14,287 nt of DNA, from positions 1 to 14,287 of the forward strand of contig QQUD01001072.1 of assembly GCA_008501785.1 (NCBI GenBank), given 5' to 3'. The DNA comes from Chloroflexota bacterium (GTDB taxonomy: Bacteria; Chloroflexota; Anaerolineae; Promineifilales; Promineifilaceae). Positions 1 to 14,287 of the stretch are shown here, in pieces. Both the position numbers and the translations under genes were made by a program. The first letter of the stretch is position 1. Every line of letters starts with the position of its first letter. The notes beneath the pieces were generated by a model. It was given only the letters and a program-made list of their open reading frames with translations. It had not been told where the DNA came from and ran no database searches.

Positions 1-3000
1 CGTTTGATCATGCAATTATCCGATATGGTGGTAATTCCAGTGGTATTGATGCTCTTGTCAGAGTCAACGATGGTGGGTCTCTGACCCTCACCAACTCTAC
101 ACTTTCCCACAGCGACCAGTATGGTGTTTACGTTGATAGCGTGAGCCATTCAATTCAAAATAATCGGATTTACAACAATGATTCATATGGTGTGTTTAAT
201 GGCAATTCAGACAACATCACTGTTAATGCAGAAAATAACTGGTGGGGGCATGAAAGTGGCCCATCACCTTTTGGAGCTGGTGATGGTGTCAATTATGCTT
301 CACACTATGATTCTGATTGTCAATGTACAATCATCGACCAGTTTTATGTGGATGCCAATCCGTGGATAGGGAAAAAAGCCAGCAATGGTAGTAATGTTTC
401 CTGGAATGAATATGTGGCCGATCCGGTTAATACGGCCAATGGAAATTACACTTACAGCCATACCGAGCTATCAATCGATACTCGCTCAATTCCTCTTTTA
501 TTTGCTATGGCATACAATTCATTGTCTCCTGACCCTGGCGTTCTCGGGTTTGGTTGGACTCACACTTATGATATGTATGTTACCGAAAATGAATCTGGGG
601 AGTTGGTATCTATTCATTTTGGAGATGGACGAGAACTTCTCTTCTCCTGGGATGGTGCGGCTTATATCCCACCAGTGGGAACGTATTCTCAGTTGACAAA
701 AACGGGTGATAACTTCACTTTAACATTAAAAGATCAGACAGAATACCGTTTTGATGCATTGGGCCGGTTGTCTGAGATGGTTGATAGCAATAGCAACATC
801 ACATCTCTGCAATATACCGGTGTCAATCTCACATCTGTTACTGCGCCCGATGGCAGGATGCTTCTTTTTATTTATAATGGAAACGGACATCTGTCTCAAC
901 TCACTGATCCTATTGGCCGCACAATTCAATTTGGCTATGATGCAAATGACGATCTTGAATATATAGCCAATCTGACGGGAGCTGTTACCAATTTTGGCTA
1001 TGATGCTGCCCATCAATTACTCACGATTACCGACGCCAATGGGCATACATTTATTAATAATACCTATGATAGTAATGGCCGGGTGATTGAACAACTGGAT
1101 GCTCAAGGTAATTTGACAACCTTTGCATATGATTTACTCAATCATCTAACAACGGTCACAGACCCCCGTGGTATTCAGACATTTTATCAATATGACGAAT
1201 ATTCCCGTCTCATTAGCAAGACAGATGCCCTTGGGTTTACAGAACAGTTTACCTATGATAGCAACAACAATCGCACGTCAGTTACAGATAAAAATGGTAA
1301 CGAATCAACGTATACCTATGACGCAAACGGCAATCTCCTGACTGTTACCGATCCACTCCTCAAATCGACAAAATTAACATACGATGCTCAAAACAATCTC
1401 CTCACACAAACTGATGCAAATAATCGTACCACTACATATACCTATGATTTCTCAGGTAATTTGCTCTCAGTAACTGGGCCACTCAATCATACGACATCGT
1501 ATGCATATTATTCAGATGCGAATCGAAGCGGATTGATAAACACAGAAGTTGATCCACGTGGCAGTGTGACAACTTTTGATTATAACCAACAGGGAGATTT
1601 GACCCGTACCATTGATCCAACAGGCGCAGTGGTCGAAAGCGAATTTGATTTGGTAGGGCGGGTTATTACAACCACAGACTCATTGGGGTATTCAACAACA
1701 TATGCTTATGATGCTTTAAATCGTGTTTTAACCGAGACAAATACATTAGGACATCAGATTTCAAATATTTATGATCCTGTTGGGAATCTCCTGTCGATGA
1801 CCGATGCAAACGGGGAAAAGACAAGTTACGACCATGATGAAAAGAATCAAGTAATTACAGTCACAAATGCACTGGGGTATGTGACCACAAGCCAATATGA
1901 TGTAGTGGGTAATGTGATTACTACGACAGATGGCAATGGCTTTGCAACCTATTTTGAATATGATGCAAATAACAGGGTGATTTCAACAACCAATGGATTA
2001 AGCGAAACAACAATATTTACCTATGATGGCAATGGAAATTTGCTCACAGAAACTAATCCGCAAAATCATGTAAAAACAAGCAATTATGATGTGCTTAACA
2101 GGGTGGTGACGGAAACCAATTCGTTAGGATTTTTCGCAATAAATACATATGATGCTGTAGGCAATATCGTGAGCAGCACCGATGAAAATGATAATGTGAC
2201 TTCTTTTGCATATGATGCGAATAACCAGTTGATCAGTACGACTGATGCATTAGGGAATGTGATGTCATATACCTATGATGCCAATGGGAATCGTACAAGT
2301 TATACAGATACAAATGGCCACACAACATCATACACGTATACATTGCGCAATGAAGTTGAAACCCTCACCGATCCTATAGGAAATACATGGACCTATACTT
2401 ATGATAATAATGGTAGTCGGGTCTCCTTAATAGATGGTGCTGGTGACACCACAACATACAGCTATGATCAACTAAATCGATTGGTTAACATTGTTTATGC
2501 TGACGCAACCTCGGTGCAATACAGTTATGATGCAAATGGTAATGAATTGAGCTTGACTGATGGTACAGGTACAACAAACTTTAGCTATGATGCATTGAAT
2601 CGCGTGACGAATATTAATTCTCCATCTGGCAATGTTAGCTACAGTTATGATGCTGTTAATCGTACATCATTGACCACACCCACAGGCACAACGACTTATG
2701 CCTATGACGAGGTTAATCGTATGGTCGCTGTCACGGATTGGTCGGGAGAGGTTGTTTCATATACCTATGATGTGGCTGGGAACCATGTTGGCACATCCTA
2801 TCCAAACAATATTCATGAGACACTTTCATATGATGATGCCGGACGCCTAACCGGGATTCTTTATGAGAAGTCAAGCACGGCTCTTGCATCTTTTGACTAT
2901 ACACTGGATGCTGTTGGTAACCGGCTTACTATGTCTGATGCTGATGGTGTCACCTCATACGTTTATGATGCGCTCAATCGTTTGACAACTGTATCGTATC

Positions 3001-4379
3001 CAGATGGCACACCAGGCGTTGTTACCTATACCTATGATTCGGCGGGTAATAGATTGACAATGGTTGAGGATGGTGTGACAACAACATACAGCTATGACGC
3101 TGCCGATCAGCTGCAATCAATTACAGATAATAGCGGCACAACTTTATTAACCTGGGATGATAATGGGAATTTGATAAGCAAAGGGAGTGAGAGCTTCACC
3201 TGGGATAAGGCCAATCGATTAACTGGATGGACAAATGGTACAGACAGCGTAGCTTATGTCTATAATGGTGAAGGGACACGGGTGAGTCAATCCATTAATG
3301 GTGTAACAACTAACTATCTTCAAGACATTGCTATTAAATTACCTGTGGTTCTAAGCGAGTCAACGCCATCGTTAGCAGCAACGGTTGATTATGTGTATGG
3401 TCTTGATTTAATGACTGCTATTGATTCTTCCAACAATCCCACTTATTACCATACAGATGGCCTGGGCAGTGTGCGATTGCTTACGGATGAATTGGGAAGT
3501 ATCAGCGATGAATACGTGTATGATGTTTTTGGGGCTGAACGCAGCCACTCAGGCTCCAATAACAACCCGTTTACTTTTACAGGTGAACAAGTTGATGCTA
3601 CGAATGGGCTTGTTTATCTGCGAGCACGTTATTATGATCCTGACACGGGCCGTTTCATTTCTCGTGATCCGTTTCCTGGGAACATACAACATAGCCAAAG
3701 CGCAAATCGTTATGTTTATGTGCAAAATAATCCAATAATACACACTGATCCCAGTGGGGAAATAGCACCTGCACTTGCTGGCGCAGCGATAGGGGCAGTA
3801 GGAAAAGGTGGATTTTATCTTGGAGAGGTTATTGGAAATTCCATGATGAATGCTATTTATGGCGAATGCTATGGTGATTGTTTTACAAACCGAGATGGTA
3901 GTATAAATTGGGATGTCGCCGGTCATTTAGTTGCAAAAATAGGTAGCGGGGCATTGACAGGAGGTATGGTTGGATTAAATCCAACAGGATCTATAGGCAA
4001 AGCAGTTGCAGTAGGTGCATTTAAAGGTTCCGCTGGATATGCTTCGGAAGAGACATTATATAGTCTGTACGAAGTGATTAAAACGGGGGATGGATCTCAA
4101 TTTTTGTCGGACTTTACTATCTCTGAATTATCAAAAAGCACTGTACTAGGTGGACTTTCTAGCGGTATTTTTGAAAATTATTTAAAAGGTTTTGTCGGTT
4201 CTCATACTGCCGATGCATTAGGTTATCAAGGATTTAAGAAGTTAACCACTACAGGTCTTAAGAAACTTATTCTTGGGCCACTCTATGATGTCGTTTCCTC
4301 TAAAAGTGGTTCAAGTGGTGATTACAGTTTGTCAATGGACCCTAATTGGAATTCGTACGCTCCAAGTGATGGAAAGTGA
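1..4379 (+). CDS. Beta-helix / Rhs (YD-repeat) surface protein, 5' partial
   Basis: The frame is open to the left edge (first whole codon at 3), so the GTG at 141 is internal and the true start lies outside the window. The visible start (about 3-370) is parallel beta-helix sequence with the typical ENNWWGHESGP block. Next comes an Rhs N-terminal-like domain (about 400-720, VADPVNTANGNY... LGFGWTHTYD), then some 2.5 kb of YD repeats with a period near 21 residues. The Rhs core follows at about 3440-3760 (YHTDGLGSVRLLTD, GLVYLRARYYDPDTGRF, NRYVYVQNNP, TDPSGE). The last about 205 residues after DPSGE are a Gly/Ala-rich tail that I do not recognise; in Rhs proteins this is where a variable toxin sits. 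Known family role: large secreted or surface proteins whose YD repeats form a shell around the C-terminal domain. No catalytic toxin motif is visible and no immunity-like gene follows on the same strand. The gene is visibly AT-richer than its right-hand neighbours and lacks the ACGGCCGT palindrome, consistent with transfer or different selection. Confidence 0.9.
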   Translation, partial: FDHAIIRYGGNSSGIDALVRVNDGGSLTLTNSTLSHSDQYGVYVDSVSHSIQNNRIYNNDSYGVFNGNSDNITVNAENNWWGHESGPSPFGAGDGVNYASHYDSDCQCTIIDQFYVDANPWIGKKASNGSNVSWNEYVADPVNTANGNYTYSHTELSIDTRSIPLLFAMAYNSLSPDPGVLGFGWTHTYDMYVTENESGELVSIHFGDGRELLFSWDGAAYIPPVGTYSQLTKTGDNFTLTLKDQTEYRFDALGRLSEMVDSNSNITSLQYTGVNLTSVTAPDGRMLLFIYNGNGHLSQLTDPIGRTIQFGYDANDDLEYIANLTGAVTNFGYDAAHQLLTITDANGHTFINNTYDSNGRVIEQLDAQGNLTTFAYDLLNHLTTVTDPRGIQTFYQYDEYSRLISKTDALGFTEQFTYDSNNNRTSVTDKNGNESTYTYDANGNLLTVTDPLLKSTKLTYDAQNNLLTQTDANNRTTTYTYDFSGNLLSVTGPLNHTTSYAYYSDANRSGLINTEVDPRGSVTTFDYNQQGDLTRTIDPTGAVVESEFDLVGRVITTTDSLGYSTTYAYDALNRVLTETNTLGHQISNIYDPVGNLLSMTDANGEKTSYDHDEKNQVITVTNALGYVTTSQYDVVGNVITTTDGNGFATYFEYDANNRVISTTNGLSETTIFTYDGNGNLLTETNPQNHVKTSNYDVLNRVVTETNSLGFFAINTYDAVGNIVSSTDENDNVTSFAYDANNQLISTTDALGNVMSYTYDANGNRTSYTDTNGHTTSYTYTLRNEVETLTDPIGNTWTYTYDNNGSRVSLIDGAGDTTTYSYDQLNRLVNIVYADATSVQYSYDANGNELSLTDGTGTTNFSYDALNRVTNINSPSGNVSYSYDAVNRTSLTTPTGTTTYAYDEVNRMVAVTDWSGEVVSYTYDVAGNHVGTSYPNNIHETLSYDDAGRLTGILYEKSSTALASFDYTLDAVGNRLTMSDADGVTSYVYDALNRLTTVSYPDGTPGVVTYTYDSAGNRLTMVEDGVTTTYSYDAADQLQSITDNSGTTLLTWDDNGNLISKGSESFTWDKANRLTGWTNGTDSVAYVYNGEGTRVSQSINGVTTNYLQDIAIKLPVVLSESTPSLAATVDYVYGLDLMTAIDSSNNPTYYHTDGLGSVRLLTDELGSISDEYVYDVFGAERSHSGSNNNPFTFTGEQVDATNGLVYLRARYYDPDTGRFISRDPFPGNIQHSQSANRYVYVQNNPIIHTDPSGEIAPALAGAAIGAVGKGGFYLGEVIGNSMMNAIYGECYGDCFTNRDGSINWDVAGHLVAKIGSGALTGGMVGLNPTGSIGKAVAVGAFKGSAGYASEETLYSLYEVIKTGDGSQFLSDFTISELSKSTVLGGLSSGIFENYLKGFVGSHTADALGYQGFKKLTTTGLKKLILGPLYDVVSSKSGSSGDYSLSMDPNWNSYAPSDGK
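735..3290 (+). repeat. YD-repeat array inside the Rhs gene
   Basis: Coding repeat with a unit of about 63 nt (21 residues) of the form YDxxGNLLxxTDxxGxxTxYxYD. The span suggests about 35-40 units. Units diverge strongly at DNA level, so this is an old, protein-level repeat rather than a recent expansion. Confidence 0.85.
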
Positions 4380-4463: not shown

Positions 4464-4495
4464 ACCAATCCAGTGTTATCCGGCATTGGATTGGT
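4464..4495. terminator. Stem-loop between convergent rhs and kinase genes (possible terminator)
   Basis: A 12-bp stem, ACCAATCCAGTG (4464-4475) against CATTGGATTGGT (4484-4495), with one G-U pair on the plus strand and an 8-nt loop. The loop contains the TAA stop of the minus-strand kinase. It lies about 85 nt after the Rhs stop and between convergent genes, where a terminator is expected. The downstream plus strand is only moderately T-rich, so the terminator role is an inference. Confidence 0.45.
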
Positions 4496-5075
4496 CGTTC
4501 ATTTGTTTGAAGGCGGTGGGCAAACGGCCGTTTTCCACCCCTCTCATAATCTCCAATGCACATTCCTCAGGACTCAATTTCGATGTGTCCACTTCAAAAT
4601 CATAAATGCTGTGCGCGTGTACCAGGTCAAATTGCGCCCGTGCTTGCCCGAGCGTGCGGTCTTTGCGTGCTGCTTCGCGCTGTTCTAGCACTGGTAATGG
4701 GCAATGGATGCCAACAAACCAGGCAGGCAATGTGCTAAACAAGGCTGCACATTCATCGATCCAAGATTTTTCAACCATCACATGATCTGCCACCACGTTA
4801 TTTCCTGCTTGTGAGAGTGCCGCAATCGTTTGATGCATCCCCGAAAACAGGCGATGGCCAACCGGACCTGCTTCCGTTGCCAATCCCAGCACTTCATCCC
4901 ACAGCGGTTGGTTGAGATAACGCTTGGGCAGCATCCAGATAAATTTGTCAATGCCCGCATCAAGGAATGGGTCATCCAGCATTTTTTGCAGCGCTTTGAC
5001 AATGCTGGTTTTCCCTGAACTAGATGTGCCATTCAGAATGATAATCTTTCCAGGTTTCATCGAGTTTGATTCCAT
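4476..5075 (-). CDS. Chloramphenicol phosphotransferase-like P-loop kinase
   Basis: 199 residues, close to the usual length of the chloramphenicol 3-O-phosphotransferase (CPT) family. The N-terminus KIIILNGTSSSGKTSIV holds the Walker A P-loop (GTSSSGKT, residues 16-23). GIDKFIWMLP follows, with Asp43 at the position of the proposed catalytic base of Streptomyces CPT (GVDSLI...MP). The C-terminal part has the family blocks WFVGIHCPLPVLEQRE, ARKDRTLGQARAQ and the YDFEVDTS strand. Family role: ATP-dependent phosphorylation of a small hydroxylated substrate, classically chloramphenicol; many homologues have unknown substrates, so resistance should not be assumed. The ATG at 5075 is supported by GGAAGG 8 nt upstream; the in-frame Met6 lacks such a site. 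It is a single gene, convergent with the Rhs gene. Confidence 0.85.
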   Translation of the reverse strand: MESNSMKPGKIIILNGTSSSGKTSIVKALQKMLDDPFLDAGIDKFIWMLPKRYLNQPLWDEVLGLATEAGPVGHRLFSGMHQTIAALSQAGNNVVADHVMVEKSWIDECAALFSTLPAWFVGIHCPLPVLEQREAARKDRTLGQARAQFDLVHAHSIYDFEVDTSKLSPEECALEIMRGVENGRLPTAFKQMNDQSNAG

Positions 5076-8471: not shown

Positions 8472-10832
8472 GCATTTTTTGTAGTCGTTTTTACTTTGTT
8501 GTTCGGCTGTCGCCCGGTTGAAGAACCCGCATTAGAGGGGCGAATACTGTTTTGGCACGATTGGGGAACTGAAGATACGGCCGTTCTCGATGAACTACTG
8601 GCTGGCTTTAGCGCCCTCAATCCAGATGTGCGTGTGCTCACTGTCGCCGTTCCGCCCGGTACGCTGCGCCAACGATACGAAGAAACGGCCGTTTTGGGGC
8701 TGGGGCCTGATTTGCTTGTGCTTTCCGACACCGACGTGCGTCCTCTGGCCGATGCCAACTTGATACGTTCAATTCCCGATGATGTCACCAATGCCGATAA
8801 ATTCCTCTCTACTGCGCTGGGTTCCCTGCGCTACGACGATCATCTATACGGATTTCCGTTGTCGCTGCGACCCTTGGCGCTTTATTACAATGCGGACAAA
8901 GTTGCAGAGCCACCGGGTACGCTCGATGCGCTGCTGCAAGAAGCACGCGCCGGGCAGTCGGTCGCATTAAACGCGCAGTTTTTGCACTCACTCTGGGGGT
9001 TGCCAGCATTTGGTGGCAGCTTGTTTGATGCCGAAGGTCGAGTCGTGCTGAATCAAGGTGGGTACAACAGTTGGCTAAACTGGTTGAAAACGGCACAGGA
9101 AACGCCTGGTGTGATTCTGGAGCGCAACGACGAAATATTACGCGAGCTATTTGTGTCTGAGCGTGTTGCTTATTACGTGGGCAGTCCGCAAGCACTGCCG
9201 GACTTGCAGGAACAGATGGGAGTGGCACGGGTGCGGTCCACAGTGCTTCCTGCTGGCCCAAACGGACCCGCTGGACCGTTGCTGCAAGTAGAGGCCATTC
9301 TCTTTAACCAGGCGTCGTCAAATCATCAGATTGAGCTGGCGTTAGCGTTGGCTGATTTTTTGACGAATGCGGAACAAAATGCACGCCTCATGCGCGATAC
9401 AAACCGTGTGCCAGCCAATCGTCGCGTGCGTGTAGACCAACAGACATTTCCGGTCATTGCTGGTTTTGCAGCGCAGGCGCGAACGGCCGTTCCTGTCCCG
9501 CAAGGGCCGCAAATGGAAACGCTCGTAGCCTCTGGTGAAGATATGCTGCGCGGGGTGCTCACTGGCATTGTCGATGTGAATGAAGCGGCAGATCGGCTGG
9601 CACAAACGGTCAATCAACAATATGGATTTGAAACATTGCTGGCTGCACCAGTGGTTGCTAACTGCGATGCTGCTGGGTCGCTCACAGTTTGGCATGCCTG
9701 GGATGGATCACTGGCTGCTGCTTTGATGCAGGTTGCTACCGAATTCATGGCACAGTGTGAGGATGCGGTGGTTCAACTGCGTCAATTTGCGCCGGAGGTG
9801 CTTTGGGAACGGCTGCAAGAGACCAACGGGAACGAACCTGCTCCCGACTTGATTTTAGGACCCAGTGAATGGATGCTGGATTTGGTCAATGCTGGCACGA
9901 TTACCCCGTTAAACGGCCGTGTTGATGCTGATGTGTTGCAGCGATATGTGCCAGTGGCGCTGAATACGCTGCGTGCAGATGGGCAGCTATATGGATTGCC
10001 CGTGAATTTGAATTTATCTGCCCTTTATTACAATGGCGATGTCATCACTGATCCGGCGACAACGTTAGATGATTTACTGACTGTAGCAGCGGCGGGACAA
10101 AAGGTGGCACTGCCTTTGTCATTTGAGGATGCTTTTTGGGGCGTCGGGTCTTTTGGCGGCACCTTGTTTGACGAGCGTTACCAACTAACCTTGGTGGAGT
10201 CGGGTTTTGTGTCATGGCTAACCTGGCTGCAAGAGGCGCAAAACGTGCCGGGAATTGTCTTGTCGGTTGATGAAACGATTTTACAGGTGCTTTTTTCATC
10301 TGGTGCGGTGGCATATTATGCTGGTCCGTCACATCAGTTAAGTGCCTTGCAGGATGCTCTGGGCGTGGAAGCGGTACGCATCACAGATTTGCCAGCTGGT
10401 CCAGGTGGCGCGGCTGCGCCGTATTTGAGTGCAGATGCATTTTTCATCACCAGGGAAGTAATGCAGACAAATAGTGATCTGGCGCTGGACTTTGCCTTAT
10501 ACACAACGGCCGTGAATGCACAGACCACCTTAATGACCCAGGCGCAAATGGTGCCAACCAATGTCAATGTAGACAGCACCGGTTATCCGGCCATTGCTGG
10601 CTTTTTGATGCAGGCGCAAACGGCCGTTATCTGGCCACAAGTGCCGCAGGTAACGGCCTTGCAGCAGCAGGGGGACGACCTGTATGAAAGCGTGGTGCTG
10701 CGTCAGATGCCGCCAGCAGAGACTGCCTGTACATTTGAAATTGGCGTGAATCAAGTCAACGGTTTTTTGATTGATGAGACAGCACTGCCGGATATTTGTA
10801 CGTCGGAAAATGGTGCGATAACGGATGACTAG
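8457..10832 (+). CDS. Lipoprotein with two tandem solute-binding (family 1, MalE-like) domains
   Basis: Read from 8457 the protein has 791 residues and opens with a lipoprotein signal peptide (KRFLAFFVVVFTLLFGC, lipobox Cys17). Domain 1 (about 26-390) starts GRILFWHDWG; domain 2 (about 407-760) starts GSLTVWHAWDGS. Matching blocks show an internal duplication: FGGSLFD/FGGTLFD, YYVGSPQAL/YYAGPSHQL, LPAGPNGPAGP/LPAGPGGAAAP, VIAGFAAQARTAV/AIAGFLMQAQTAV. Family role: outside binding component of ABC sugar importers; the ligand is not predictable and no ABC permease or ATPase gene is in the window. Start problem: AGGAGGT at 8444-8450 points to codon 8457, which is GTT; there is no in-frame ATG, GTG or TTG between the stop at 8397 and TTG 8496. 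Starting at 8496 (778 residues) would delete nearly all of the signal peptide. Confidence 0.88.
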   Translation, partial: VKRFLAFFVVVFTLLFGCRPVEEPALEGRILFWHDWGTEDTAVLDELLAGFSALNPDVRVLTVAVPPGTLRQRYEETAVLGLGPDLLVLSDTDVRPLADANLIRSIPDDVTNADKFLSTALGSLRYDDHLYGFPLSLRPLALYYNADKVAEPPGTLDALLQEARAGQSVALNAQFLHSLWGLPAFGGSLFDAEGRVVLNQGGYNSWLNWLKTAQETPGVILERNDEILRELFVSERVAYYVGSPQALPDLQEQMGVARVRSTVLPAGPNGPAGPLLQVEAILFNQASSNHQIELALALADFLTNAEQNARLMRDTNRVPANRRVRVDQQTFPVIAGFAAQARTAVPVPQGPQMETLVASGEDMLRGVLTGIVDVNEAADRLAQTVNQQYGFETLLAAPVVANCDAAGSLTVWHAWDGSLAAALMQVATEFMAQCEDAVVQLRQFAPEVLWERLQETNGNEPAPDLILGPSEWMLDLVNAGTITPLNGRVDADVLQRYVPVALNTLRADGQLYGLPVNLNLSALYYNGDVITDPATTLDDLLTVAAAGQKVALPLSFEDAFWGVGSFGGTLFDERYQLTLVESGFVSWLTWLQEAQNVPGIVLSVDETILQVLFSSGAVAYYAGPSHQLSALQDALGVEAVRITDLPAGPGGAAAPYLSADAFFITREVMQTNSDLALDFALYTTAVNAQTTLMTQAQMVPTNVNVDSTGYPAIAGFLMQAQTAVIWPQVPQVTALQQQGDDLYESVVLRQMPPAETACTFEIGVNQVNGFLIDETALPDICTSENGAITDD

Positions 10833-12289: not shown

Positions 12290-13360
12290 TTACAGCCACT
12301 TCTTTTTTCTGAAATAGTACAGCATTGTTATGCTTATTAGCAGCATGACCAGCCATACAATAAAGTACCCCCAGTGAAAACCAAGTTCAGGGATATACTG
12401 GAAATTCATGCCATACAGGCTTGTAATAAAAGTAAGTGGAATGAAGATTGTGGCAATGATGGTTAACACCTTCATCACCTCGTTCATCTTGTTGCTAAGG
12501 CTGGAGAGATAGATATCAATTAAGCTTGATACAATGTCACGATATGTTTCGACGGTATCGATTACCTGTATGGTGTGTTCATATACGTCACGTAGATAGA
12601 TCAGAGTTCCTTCTTGAAATTGAGCGTAATCACCACGCTGTAGCCCCCCAATGACTTCTCTTAAAGGCCAGATTGAGCGACGCAAAAAGAGCATCTCACG
12701 CTTGATTTGATTTATTTTTTGTAAAGTTTCTGGATTTGGATCAATCACCAATTCTTCTTCGATTGTTTCGATCTGCTCTCCCAAATTTTCAAGGATTAAG
12801 TAGTAATGATCGACAATCGAATCCAGCATAGCATACGCTAAATAATCGGTGCCTGTTTGGCGGATGCGGCCTTTACCGGAACGGATACGGTTTCGTAAGG
12901 CATCAAAAACATCTTTTTCTTGTTCTTGAAAGGTGAGCACAAAGCCTTGTCCTAAAACAATGCTGATTTGTTCTGTTTCTATCTGATTTGTATCTTCTTG
13001 CCAATGGATCATTTTTAGAATCAGATATAGATAGTCATCGTACTGATCAATTTTGGGCCGTTGCTCGGTATTGAGAATGTCTTCCAATAACAAGGGGTGG
13101 ATGCTAAAAATCTCACCAATTTTGGCAATTTTCTCTGTCTCGTGTAAACCGGCGATATTAATCCAGGTAACAGGCTTGCTGTCTCTGGCCCGTGCGAGTT
13201 CATGGATGTGAGCTGATTCTCGTTCTTCGAAGAACTCATCTGCATGATACTCAATGATAGACACTTTGGACTGGCTCATTTTCTGTTGGCCAACATGCAC
13301 CATCGAGCCAGGAGCCATGCCTATCTTTTTTGTCATTCGGCTAAACCGTTTCCATATCAT
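12290..13360 (-). CDS. corA: CorA-type magnesium/cobalt transporter
   Basis: 356 residues, the size of Thermotoga CorA (351), and similar to it along its whole length as far as I recall that sequence (TWINIAGLH, IHPLLLEDILN, QRPKID, RDIVSSLIDIYLSSLSNKMNEVMKVLTIIATIFIPLTF in parts). The signature pore-loop YGMN is at 316-319 (Gly317-Met318-Asn319), between the two C-terminal helices; the protein ends in a basic RKKKW tail. Role: pentameric channel for Mg2+ (and Co2+) uptake. The N-terminus KRFSRMTKKIGMAPGSMVHVG aligns with the start of the Thermotoga protein, supporting ATG 13360 although no Shine-Dalgarno is visible. The start lies 15 nt after the extended rhodanese stop, suggesting an operon and perhaps translational coupling. 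The gene is AT-richer than its neighbours and lacks the ACGGCCGT palindrome. Confidence 0.95.
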   Translation of the reverse strand: MIWKRFSRMTKKIGMAPGSMVHVGQQKMSQSKVSIIEYHADEFFEERESAHIHELARARDSKPVTWINIAGLHETEKIAKIGEIFSIHPLLLEDILNTEQRPKIDQYDDYLYLILKMIHWQEDTNQIETEQISIVLGQGFVLTFQEQEKDVFDALRNRIRSGKGRIRQTGTDYLAYAMLDSIVDHYYLILENLGEQIETIEEELVIDPNPETLQKINQIKREMLFLRRSIWPLREVIGGLQRGDYAQFQEGTLIYLRDVYEHTIQVIDTVETYRDIVSSLIDIYLSSLSNKMNEVMKVLTIIATIFIPLTFITSLYGMNFQYIPELGFHWGYFIVWLVMLLISITMLYYFRKKKWL

Positions 13361-13375
13361 GATATTTTATTGCGT

Positions 13376-13981
13376 TTAGTTTTCGATTTGGAAGCCTGCT
13401 TCTTGCCATGCAGCAAAACCACCGCGCAGGGTGGTGACGTTGGTAAAACCGAACTCCATCAGACCAGACGCCACACGGGCGCTTGATTCTTCGCTTGGTC
13501 AAGTACAGTAAGTGATGATTTCGGGGCTGTCGACGAGTTCCCTGTGGCGGGTTTCAATGTCGGCTAGTGTCATGTGAACCGCACCGGGAATGTGGGCAGC
13601 TTCGTACTCGTCGAGGTCGCGGGTGTCAACGAAAACGGCCGTTCCTGCATCAAATCTACGCTTCGCCTCATCCAAATCAATCCGTGCCACTTCAGGGTAG
13701 GGCAGCCCTGCATTCTCCTGACTCACCGGGTTAGATTCCAACCGGCTTGGTGCTTCAGCCGAATTGGGCTGAGAAAGCCAAAAGGCAGCAAAAATGAGCA
13801 CGGCTCCTGCAATCAAACCAATGATGAGGAGTGGACTTGCTCCCTGTCGTTTGGGTTGTTGAAATGGTTGTGAATGTGGAAATTGTTTGGCTGTTTCCGA
13901 AAGGGGGTCACCACAATGACGGCAAAACTGGTCATTTACCATGACGCTGTTGCCACAATTGGAACAAAAGTTAGCGGCCAT
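13376..13981 (-). CDS. Zinc-ribbon, membrane-anchored rhodanese; probable selenoprotein (in-frame TGA)
   Basis: A 160-codon frame ends at TGA 13499-13501, but the same frame continues for 40 codons to TAA 13376-13378 and completes a normal rhodanese domain. Read through, the protein has 201 residues: a zinc ribbon (Cys6, Cys9, Cys20, Cys23), a Pro/Gln linker, one membrane helix (about 50-69), and a rhodanese domain (about 98-201) with FVDTRDLDEYEAAHIPGAVH, then EIITYCT-TGA-PSEESSARVASGL and TTLRGGFAAW. In the related YCxCPxExxSA rhodaneses the residue at the TGA is the catalytic cysteine that carries the persulfide, so selenocysteine (residue 161) is the natural reading. If TGA is only a stop, the protein lacks its active site. 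Zinc ribbon inside and rhodanese outside the membrane is inferred. AAGGAG lies 10 nt before ATG 13981. Likely co-transcribed with the upstream arsR-like gene and downstream corA. A nonsense mutation is the main alternative. Confidence 0.8.
13462..13501 (-). promoter_or_regulatory. Candidate bacterial SECIS hairpin after the in-frame TGA
   Basis: On the minus strand GCGCC (13482-13478) pairs with GGCGU (13472-13468; four Watson-Crick pairs and one G-U), closing the loop CGUGU (13477-13473). The loop begins 21 nt after the TGA and has a G at its second position. GACCA (13500-13496), which contains the GA of the TGA, pairs with UGGUC (13466-13462), giving a lower stem. These features match the general description of bacterial SECIS elements (loop about 16-37 nt from the UGA, early loop G). 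The lower part is asymmetric (13 nt against 1), so the fold needs computing. Confidence 0.5.
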
Positions 13982-14019
13982 AAGGTCTTATCTCCTTTGC
14001 TCCAAATTTATCATGGAAA

Positions 14020-14287
14020 TCAGGTATTTTCAATGGGGGTGGCATTTTGACCTTCAGGACCGCATAACGGCCGTTTTACCATCCGCCCCGTATCCCAAAA
14101 CGCATCAAACCATTCTCGCCAATGTTTTGCCGCATCCCGATCCACCGCATAATAAACCCAACGTCCATCCAATTTGTCCCGTCGTGAATGAATCAGCCCC
14201 GCCTTGCTCAACACCCGTAAATGGTGCGAATGTAAGTTAGCAGGCAAATCCAGCGACGCTTGCAGCTCACAATTGCAAGAATCCCCC
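14020..14287 (-). CDS. ArsR/SmtB-family winged-helix regulator, 5' partial
   Basis: The frame runs to the right edge (first visible whole codon at 14286), so the true start lies outside; the TTG at 14247 is internal. The visible 88 residues contain SCNCELQASLDLPANLHSHH in sequence, the ArsR recognition-helix region with SHHLRVLSKAGLI, and the wing SRRDKLDGRWVYYAVD. The Cys-x-Cys (CNC) at the start of the DNA-binding helix is at the place of the ELCVC metalloid/metal-sensing motif of ArsR. Family role: repressor released by metal, metalloid or persulfide binding. It ends 38 nt before the rhodanese start in the same direction, so it probably heads the operon and may sense the stress the rhodanese deals with. 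Confidence 0.85.
   Translation of the reverse strand, partial: GDSCNCELQASLDLPANLHSHHLRVLSKAGLIHSRRDKLDGRWVYYAVDRDAAKHWREWFDAFWDTGRMVKRPLCGPEGQNATPIENT

Follow-up and report, generated by a model that had tools for sequence, protein, structure and literature searches.

A gene on the minus strand at positions 13376-13981 of the window, the whole stretch of 14,287 nucleotides of Chloroflexota DNA that was analysed, very probably encodes a 201-residue selenoprotein in which a UGA codon is read as selenocysteine (Sec) and in which a zinc-ribbon-like segment, a likely transmembrane helix and a rhodanese domain follow one another. Selenocysteine at this codon had been proposed in the original prediction, and the proposal is borne out by the conservation of the TGA, a SECIS hairpin behind it, the Sec machinery in the genomes of relatives and the occurrence of relatives with cysteine at the same place. 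The features of the region are as follows.

13376..13981, minus strand: putative selenoprotein gene of 201 codons, from ATG (13979-13981) to TAA (13376-13378), with the TGA inside the frame translated
13499..13501, minus strand: Sec codon TGA, residue 161, position 3 of the CxU motif C159-T160-U161
13505..13507, minus strand: Cys159, opposite the canonical rhodanese nucleophile in the profile alignment
13397..13675, minus strand: rhodanese domain PF00581, residues 103-195 (profile search, 65.4 bits)
13468..13482, minus strand: SECIS hairpin, 5-bp stem GCGCC/GGCGU (one G-U) and loop CGUGU
13775..13831, minus strand: likely transmembrane helix, residues about 51-69 (sequence and hydropathy), preceded by basic residues
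13901..13969, minus strand: zinc-ribbon-like C-x2-C...C-x2-C, residues 5-27 (PF13240)
13992..13997, minus strand: Shine-Dalgarno-like AAGGAG (by sequence), 10 nt 5' of the ATG
14020..14286, minus strand: ArsR-family regulator, incomplete at the edge of the window (PF01022, 22.3 bits; cut-off 22)
12290..13360, minus strand: CorA-family transporter (PF01544, 252.7 bits), on the same strand as the selenoprotein gene

The standard ORF ends at the TGA and gives 160 aa only. When the TGA was translated as U, 40 further codons were gained up to the TAA, and this TGA, at codon 161, is the single one in the frame. The read-through protein matched positions 2-102 of the 102 positions of PF00581, with a score well above the gathering cut-off of 22.2 bits. 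The part behind the TGA thus completes the rhodanese domain, in agreement with the original prediction that these 40 codons supply its missing end. The zinc-ribbon profile PF13240 scored 24.9 bits against a gathering score of 25, with all four cysteines present. Near its N-terminus the protein has a single hydrophobic helix, preceded by basic residues, and the likely orientation, judged from these two features of the sequence, is therefore N-in and C-out with the rhodanese domain outside the membrane, where it had originally been placed. The flanking genes are close: the stop TGA of the ArsR-family gene lies 38 nt upstream of the selenoprotein ATG, and the ATG of the CorA-family gene lies 15 nt past the selenoprotein stop.

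A search of predicted proteins returned 50 homologues including that of the window, and 48 of the 50 end in YCT exactly at the TGA codon, a uniformity that goes far beyond what chance would give. The remaining two, known as proteins only, read on, with W at this position in P0014 and C in P0029. Genome DNA was searched with the pattern I-T-Y-C-T-[TAA/TAG/TGA/TGG]-P-x-E, and in the 108 loci matched, which are partly non-independent (102 distinct 132-base contexts among 109, the window's included), the codon was TGA in every case, with TAA, TAG and TGG at 0 each in a complete codon count. The fixed residues of the pattern miss members that depart from it, and YCAU members turned up in later searches. 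By title, 82 of the 108 loci belong to Chloroflexota, 16 to Acidobacteria, 6 to Deltaproteobacteria, 2 to Firmicutes and 1 to Planctomycetota, and 1 is untitled; the records include Thermanaerothrix daxensis GNS-1 (L071) and Acetoanaerobium pronyense (L077). In nearly all loci, among the matches listed, the frame ends about 40 codons past the TGA. The codons beyond the TGA are under purifying selection: past the TGA, 115 pairs over 38 codons gave a median dN/dS of 0.151 and a maximum of 1.04, and ahead of it 111 pairs over 58 codons gave 0.131 and 0.46, the pairs overlapping in that sequences were used in more than one. Cysteine takes the position of the TGA in six relatives, as YCTCP in P0029 and L173 and also in L183, L184, L186 and L187, so that the exchange to cysteine at residue 161 which had been expected among homologues does occur. 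A bacterial selenoprotein is recognised by an in-frame UGA that is either conserved or exchanged for Cys, and the family shows both.

That the TGA is a true stop, behind a truncated and decaying 160-aa rhodanese, is highly improbable: the standard ORF listing does end there and an extra in-frame TAG is known within the family (L006 and L092), but such a pseudogene was discarded in view of the uniformity of the TGA over 108/108 loci from several phyla, the dN/dS beyond it, the hairpin and the common frame end in nearly all of the loci listed. Decoding of UGA as tryptophan, or by a general read-through other than Sec insertion, can be given just as little credence. The W of P0014 speaks for it, possibly as TGG or as TGA under another code, but TGG was found at 0 of 108 loci though the pattern allowed it, and UGA also terminates several family members (among the matches listed) and two ORFs of the window; on these two grounds the reading was rejected. 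The five non-TGA relatives seen as DNA (L173, L183, L184, L186 and L187) have Cys and never Trp, and both Sec machinery, in the genomes of relatives, and a SECIS-like hairpin exist. In L006 and L092 the additional TAG stands upstream within the gene. Their upstream sequences are identical, and the two loci are therefore perhaps one lineage.

Among 199 genomes from the phylum of G032, 20 matches were found in 18 genomes, of which 15 carried TGA and 5 had no stop. In eight of these loci (L178, L180, L181, L182, L185, L188, L189 and L190) the TGA rhodanese lies within frames of 312-671 aa when stops are read through, and other domains are possibly present in these long frames.

The hairpin starts 16 nt after the TGA, and the spacing from TGA to loop is 21 nt. 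The published bacterial SECIS model, as given in the legend to Fig. 2 of PMC13188914, has a loop of 3-9 nt, a stem of 4-16 bp, a spacing of 16-37 nt, a G within the first two loop positions and an MFE of -7.5 or lower. The window falls within the limits stated in that legend when the 40-nt fold (-10 kcal/mol) is considered; the bare 17-nt hairpin, at -6.9 kcal/mol (z -2.34), is short of -7.5 if counted alone. This hairpin did fold better than its shuffles, but the 40-nt fold of the window did not: its z was -0.51, and 58 of 200 shuffled versions were equally good. Over 109 loci, the mean energy z against synonymous shuffles was -0.90, and a control stretch further on gave +0.23 (108 loci).

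The family consensus GCGCC-CGUGY-GGCGY, from codons 6-10 past the TGA, is near-fixed at the nucleotide level. Codon choice in the hairpin is accordingly biased, and among 102 distinct sequences Ser is AGC/AGT in 99, Ala is GCC in 99, Arg is CGT in 79 and Ala is GCG in 89. Base pairing was followed in a wider set, with 122 distinct sequences bearing the TGA. The pair of nt 21/33 is C-G in 102, U-A in 8, U-G in 4, G-C in 1 and unpaired in 7, giving 115 paired where 106.1 would be expected if the positions were independent, and U21 accompanies A33 (Fisher test without correction for kinship, p about 1e-8). Pair 20/34 showed no excess (106 of 122 paired, 104.6 expected) and pairs 22/32, 23/31 and 24/30 hardly vary, so that pair 21/33 is the one which carries the covariation; at 19/35 no pairing was seen in these sequences. 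Loop G26 is present in 122/122 and G26-U27 in 110/122. In a set of 6 Cys relatives G26 was found in none, a Lys or other codon standing there, and the stem is kept in L183.

The Sec machinery was sought in the genomes of 36 gene-carrying relatives, hand-picked from the 108 loci, and in 14 control genomes. selB scored over its cut-off in 34/36 carriers and 2/14 controls, and selA in 31/36 and 1/14. A tRNA-Sec of at least 60 bits was present in 32/36 carriers; at the gathering score it was found in 34/36, but also in 5/14 controls. The ten carriers of a zinc-ribbon gene among the 36 had selB in 10/10, selA in 8/10 and a tRNA-Sec of at least 60 bits in 9/10. For the organism of the window itself, Sec insertion is inferred.

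Selenocysteine use is common in the class of G029: in the Anaerolineae sample, selB exceeded its cut-off in 239 of 298 genomes, with at most four candidates scored per genome, and 10 of 59 negatives rescored fully all stayed under the cut-off. A TGA-bearing match was found in 10/59 selB-negative genomes versus 16/60 selB-positive genomes, the latter hand-picked from the 239 with the known carriers G027 and G029 included and other known carriers left out. Thus, within the class, there is no clear enrichment of selB among carriers. In the selB-negative stratum, selA was over cut-off in 9/10 carriers versus 19/49 others (p 0.004), a comparison chosen after the selB association had failed. One TGA carrier of this stratum, G320, has no selA over cut-off either. 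In G005 and G326, the genomes of L006 and L092, no match to selA or selB passed the cut-off; together with the extra TAG, this would look like the pattern expected from loss of Sec use.

Rhodanese selenoproteins have been catalogued before. The NCBIfam family NF041203 (rhodanese_LYCAU) corresponds to the 'rhodanese-like form 3' of PMC13188914, in the portion of that review available to us a family of UGA-coded CxU selenoproteins, and CxU rhodaneses are named in parts of both the 2022 and the 2026 review (PMC9312934, PMC13188914). That the protein of the window is a divergent NF041203 rhodanese and nothing beyond is a reading with a real, if lesser, chance of being right. Among the NCBIfam models it matches NF041203 best (73.7 bits), and the window protein carries the motif, as YC-T-U, at the same place as in the family, as far as the family is described in the source at hand. 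Both have the rhodanese domain, the Cys-x-Sec active-site loop and UGA coding in common. The members that pass the NF041203 cut-off (L017, L053 and L070) have hydrophobic signal-like N-termini and, judged by these, are probably exported, so that export is not peculiar to the clade of the window.

Against this reading, the window protein is below the curated cut-off of 115, which L017 alone of ten domains and L053 and L070 of ten whole frames passed. Scores of the Chloroflexota clade range over 67-88 bits, with 71.5-79.5 for the whole frames of L056, L071 and L011 and 67-88 for domains. In a tree of 97 rows (the 109 loci minus short or repeated rows), built on few columns and without the NF041203 seed sequences, 72 rows form one separate branch (support 100/98), all titled Chloroflexota except L042 ('bacterium') and the window; two more Chloroflexota rows, L024 and L058, fall elsewhere in the tree. 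The window falls in a subset of 13 rows (98/80), and of the 12 rows with a zinc ribbon 10 lie in this subset; 4 changes on the tree are required to explain the distribution of the zinc-ribbon label. A hydrophobic helix was predicted in 82 of 109 loci (in none of the 16 Acidobacteria loci at the N-terminus) and the zinc-ribbon pattern was found in 12 of 109; among the loci checked, zinc-ribbon tips are limited to the 72-row clade. The window protein differs from NF041203 in belonging to a separate Chloroflexota clade, in that its membrane helix lacks a signal-cleavage-like end, and in the zinc ribbon found in part of the clade. The other rhodanese selenoprotein family, NF045694 (TsoB, rhodanese/DsbD-fusion-like), has another motif (UxxxxU) and another length, and the window protein scored 28.7 bits on it, with a curated cut-off of 805.

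The architecture had been put forward as new. This did not stand for CxU rhodanese selenoproteins as such, which are catalogued in NF041203 and some of which appear to be exported, whereas the anchored Chloroflexota clade is undescribed in the literature searched by title and abstract, and the claim of novelty is limited to that extent. The main texts of PMC9312934 and PMC13188914, in the parts available, do not name Chloroflexi, 'UxU' is absent from the same part of PMC13188914, and PMC12013277 mentions neither rhodanese nor Chloroflexi. The apparent novelty lies in a Chloroflexota clade of its own, whose members mostly carry a membrane anchor and in part a zinc-ribbon tip, and in related UxU proteins.

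In the original prediction the TGA was placed at the catalytic cysteine itself, and this part was not upheld. In the profile alignment against 15 canonical rhodaneses, YCTUPSEESSA stands over YC--RSGNRSA, so that Cys159 takes the place of the canonical nucleophile and T160-U161 forms an insertion. Cys159 is invariant in both alignments, A1 (50 rows) and A2 (28 rows). The spacing of the loop leaves some doubt. In the predicted model (pLDDT 94.5) the strand ends at Tyr158 and the helix begins six residues past Cys159, and in a canonical rhodanese model (pLDDT 91.9) the helix begins four residues past the Cys; the loop in the prediction exceeds the canonical one by two residues, and the helix spacing would fit U161. 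The strand end therefore points to Cys159 as the canonical residue and the helix start to U161. Some single alignments of a PDB search also set the target Cys opposite U161. The nucleophile is probably Cys159, followed at a distance of two residues by Sec161 (CxU), although this is not fully settled. Rhodaneses of the GlpE/PspE type (1gmx, 2jtq), matched in the PDB search, have the same domain, and the nucleophile of the canonical set aligns with Cys159. The loop of that set is two residues shorter than that of the window protein. The loops of GlpE and PspE are shorter by the same two residues, and we know of no Sec in either enzyme. BH2092 (3nhv) has a loop of equal length and the start IITYC in common with the window protein but, unlike it, a Gly at the +2 position.

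Three relatives, L119 (from 1687, plus strand), L146 (879, minus strand) and L164 (1681, minus strand), have YUTU with TGA twice and the hairpin kept, and in these Sec perhaps occupies the canonical Cys place too. They raise the question of one SECIS serving two UGA codons 6 nt apart. In the selB-negative set the TGA lies in the active-site loop in 10/10 matches (L111-L120), with CU rather than CxU in L117 and UxU in L119. In the selB-positive set 12 show CxU or UxU, L147, L148 and L156 are unplaced, and the loop of L166 (minus strand) reads YUMMRHP, with U solely at the canonical Cys place. The loop of L117 (minus strand) reads YGDRCUPP, in the CU layout.

The following course of events is proposed. 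With the hairpin that begins 16 nt behind it as the signal, the UGA at 13499-13501 would be decoded as selenocysteine by SelB and Sec-tRNA. In the product, a single membrane helix would lie between a zinc-ribbon-like tip in the cytoplasm and an outside rhodanese domain with the loop C159-T160-U161-P-x-E. C159 may take up sulfane sulfur as a persulfide (or form a disulfide), which U161 would attack to give an Se-S bond with release of sulfide or of the reduced partner; the Se-S bond would then be reset by a thiol donor outside the cytoplasm. Such persulfide-reducing chemistry at C159/U161 is put forward tentatively, and topology, substrate and electron donor are parts of the model that we infer.

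There is a real, if lesser, chance that the CxU site belongs instead to an extracytoplasmic thiol-disulfide (or copper-site) oxidoreductase and not to a sulfur-transfer enzyme. A CxU/UxU pair suits Se-S redox, the loop exceeds the canonical rhodanese length, and some neighbours are of the copper type, SCO1 adjoining L011 and the PCu(A)C copper chaperone and YtkA adjoining L022. However, this context is absent in the window, where ArsR and CorA genes flank the selenoprotein gene, and beside L056, L041 and L071; L056 is followed by DinB, UbiA and MoeA. No common operon was seen among the contexts compared, and the neighbour genes give only hints to function. Returning to the persulfide-reducing proposal, its widest form is speculative and rather unlikely as a whole: Chloroflexota would possess a large undescribed family of outward-facing, membrane-anchored CxU rhodanese selenoproteins, with rare UxU relatives (one hairpin, two UGA 6 nt apart), acting as an Se-S persulfide-reducing relay at the surface, with a link to copper delivery in some lineages.

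The family is easily missed, since its predicted proteins are cut at the TGA (48/50) and all clade proteins scored are below the NF041203 cut-off. Selenocysteine-containing formate dehydrogenases, as well as Sec translation factors, were already reported in Anaerolineales (PMC4959059; also PMC5736913, both as excerpted), and Sec use in this order is therefore not new. A common Sec use there apart from dehydrogenases would be new; the table of a 2006 survey, in the part available, lists 3 selenoproteins for Chloroflexi (PMC1794560). Thermanaerothrix daxensis (L071), an isolate by its record, carries the gene, which makes a direct test possible.

Three further genes of the window were noted in passing. 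At 8496-10832 (plus strand), two tandem solute-binding stretches lie in one protein (SBP_bac_8, profile search). A long YD-repeat protein at 3-4379 (plus strand) is open at the window start, and we take it by eye to be RHS-like. The P-loop protein at 4476-5075 (minus strand), which carries GTSSSGKTS not far from its start, presumably resembles small-molecule phosphotransferases.
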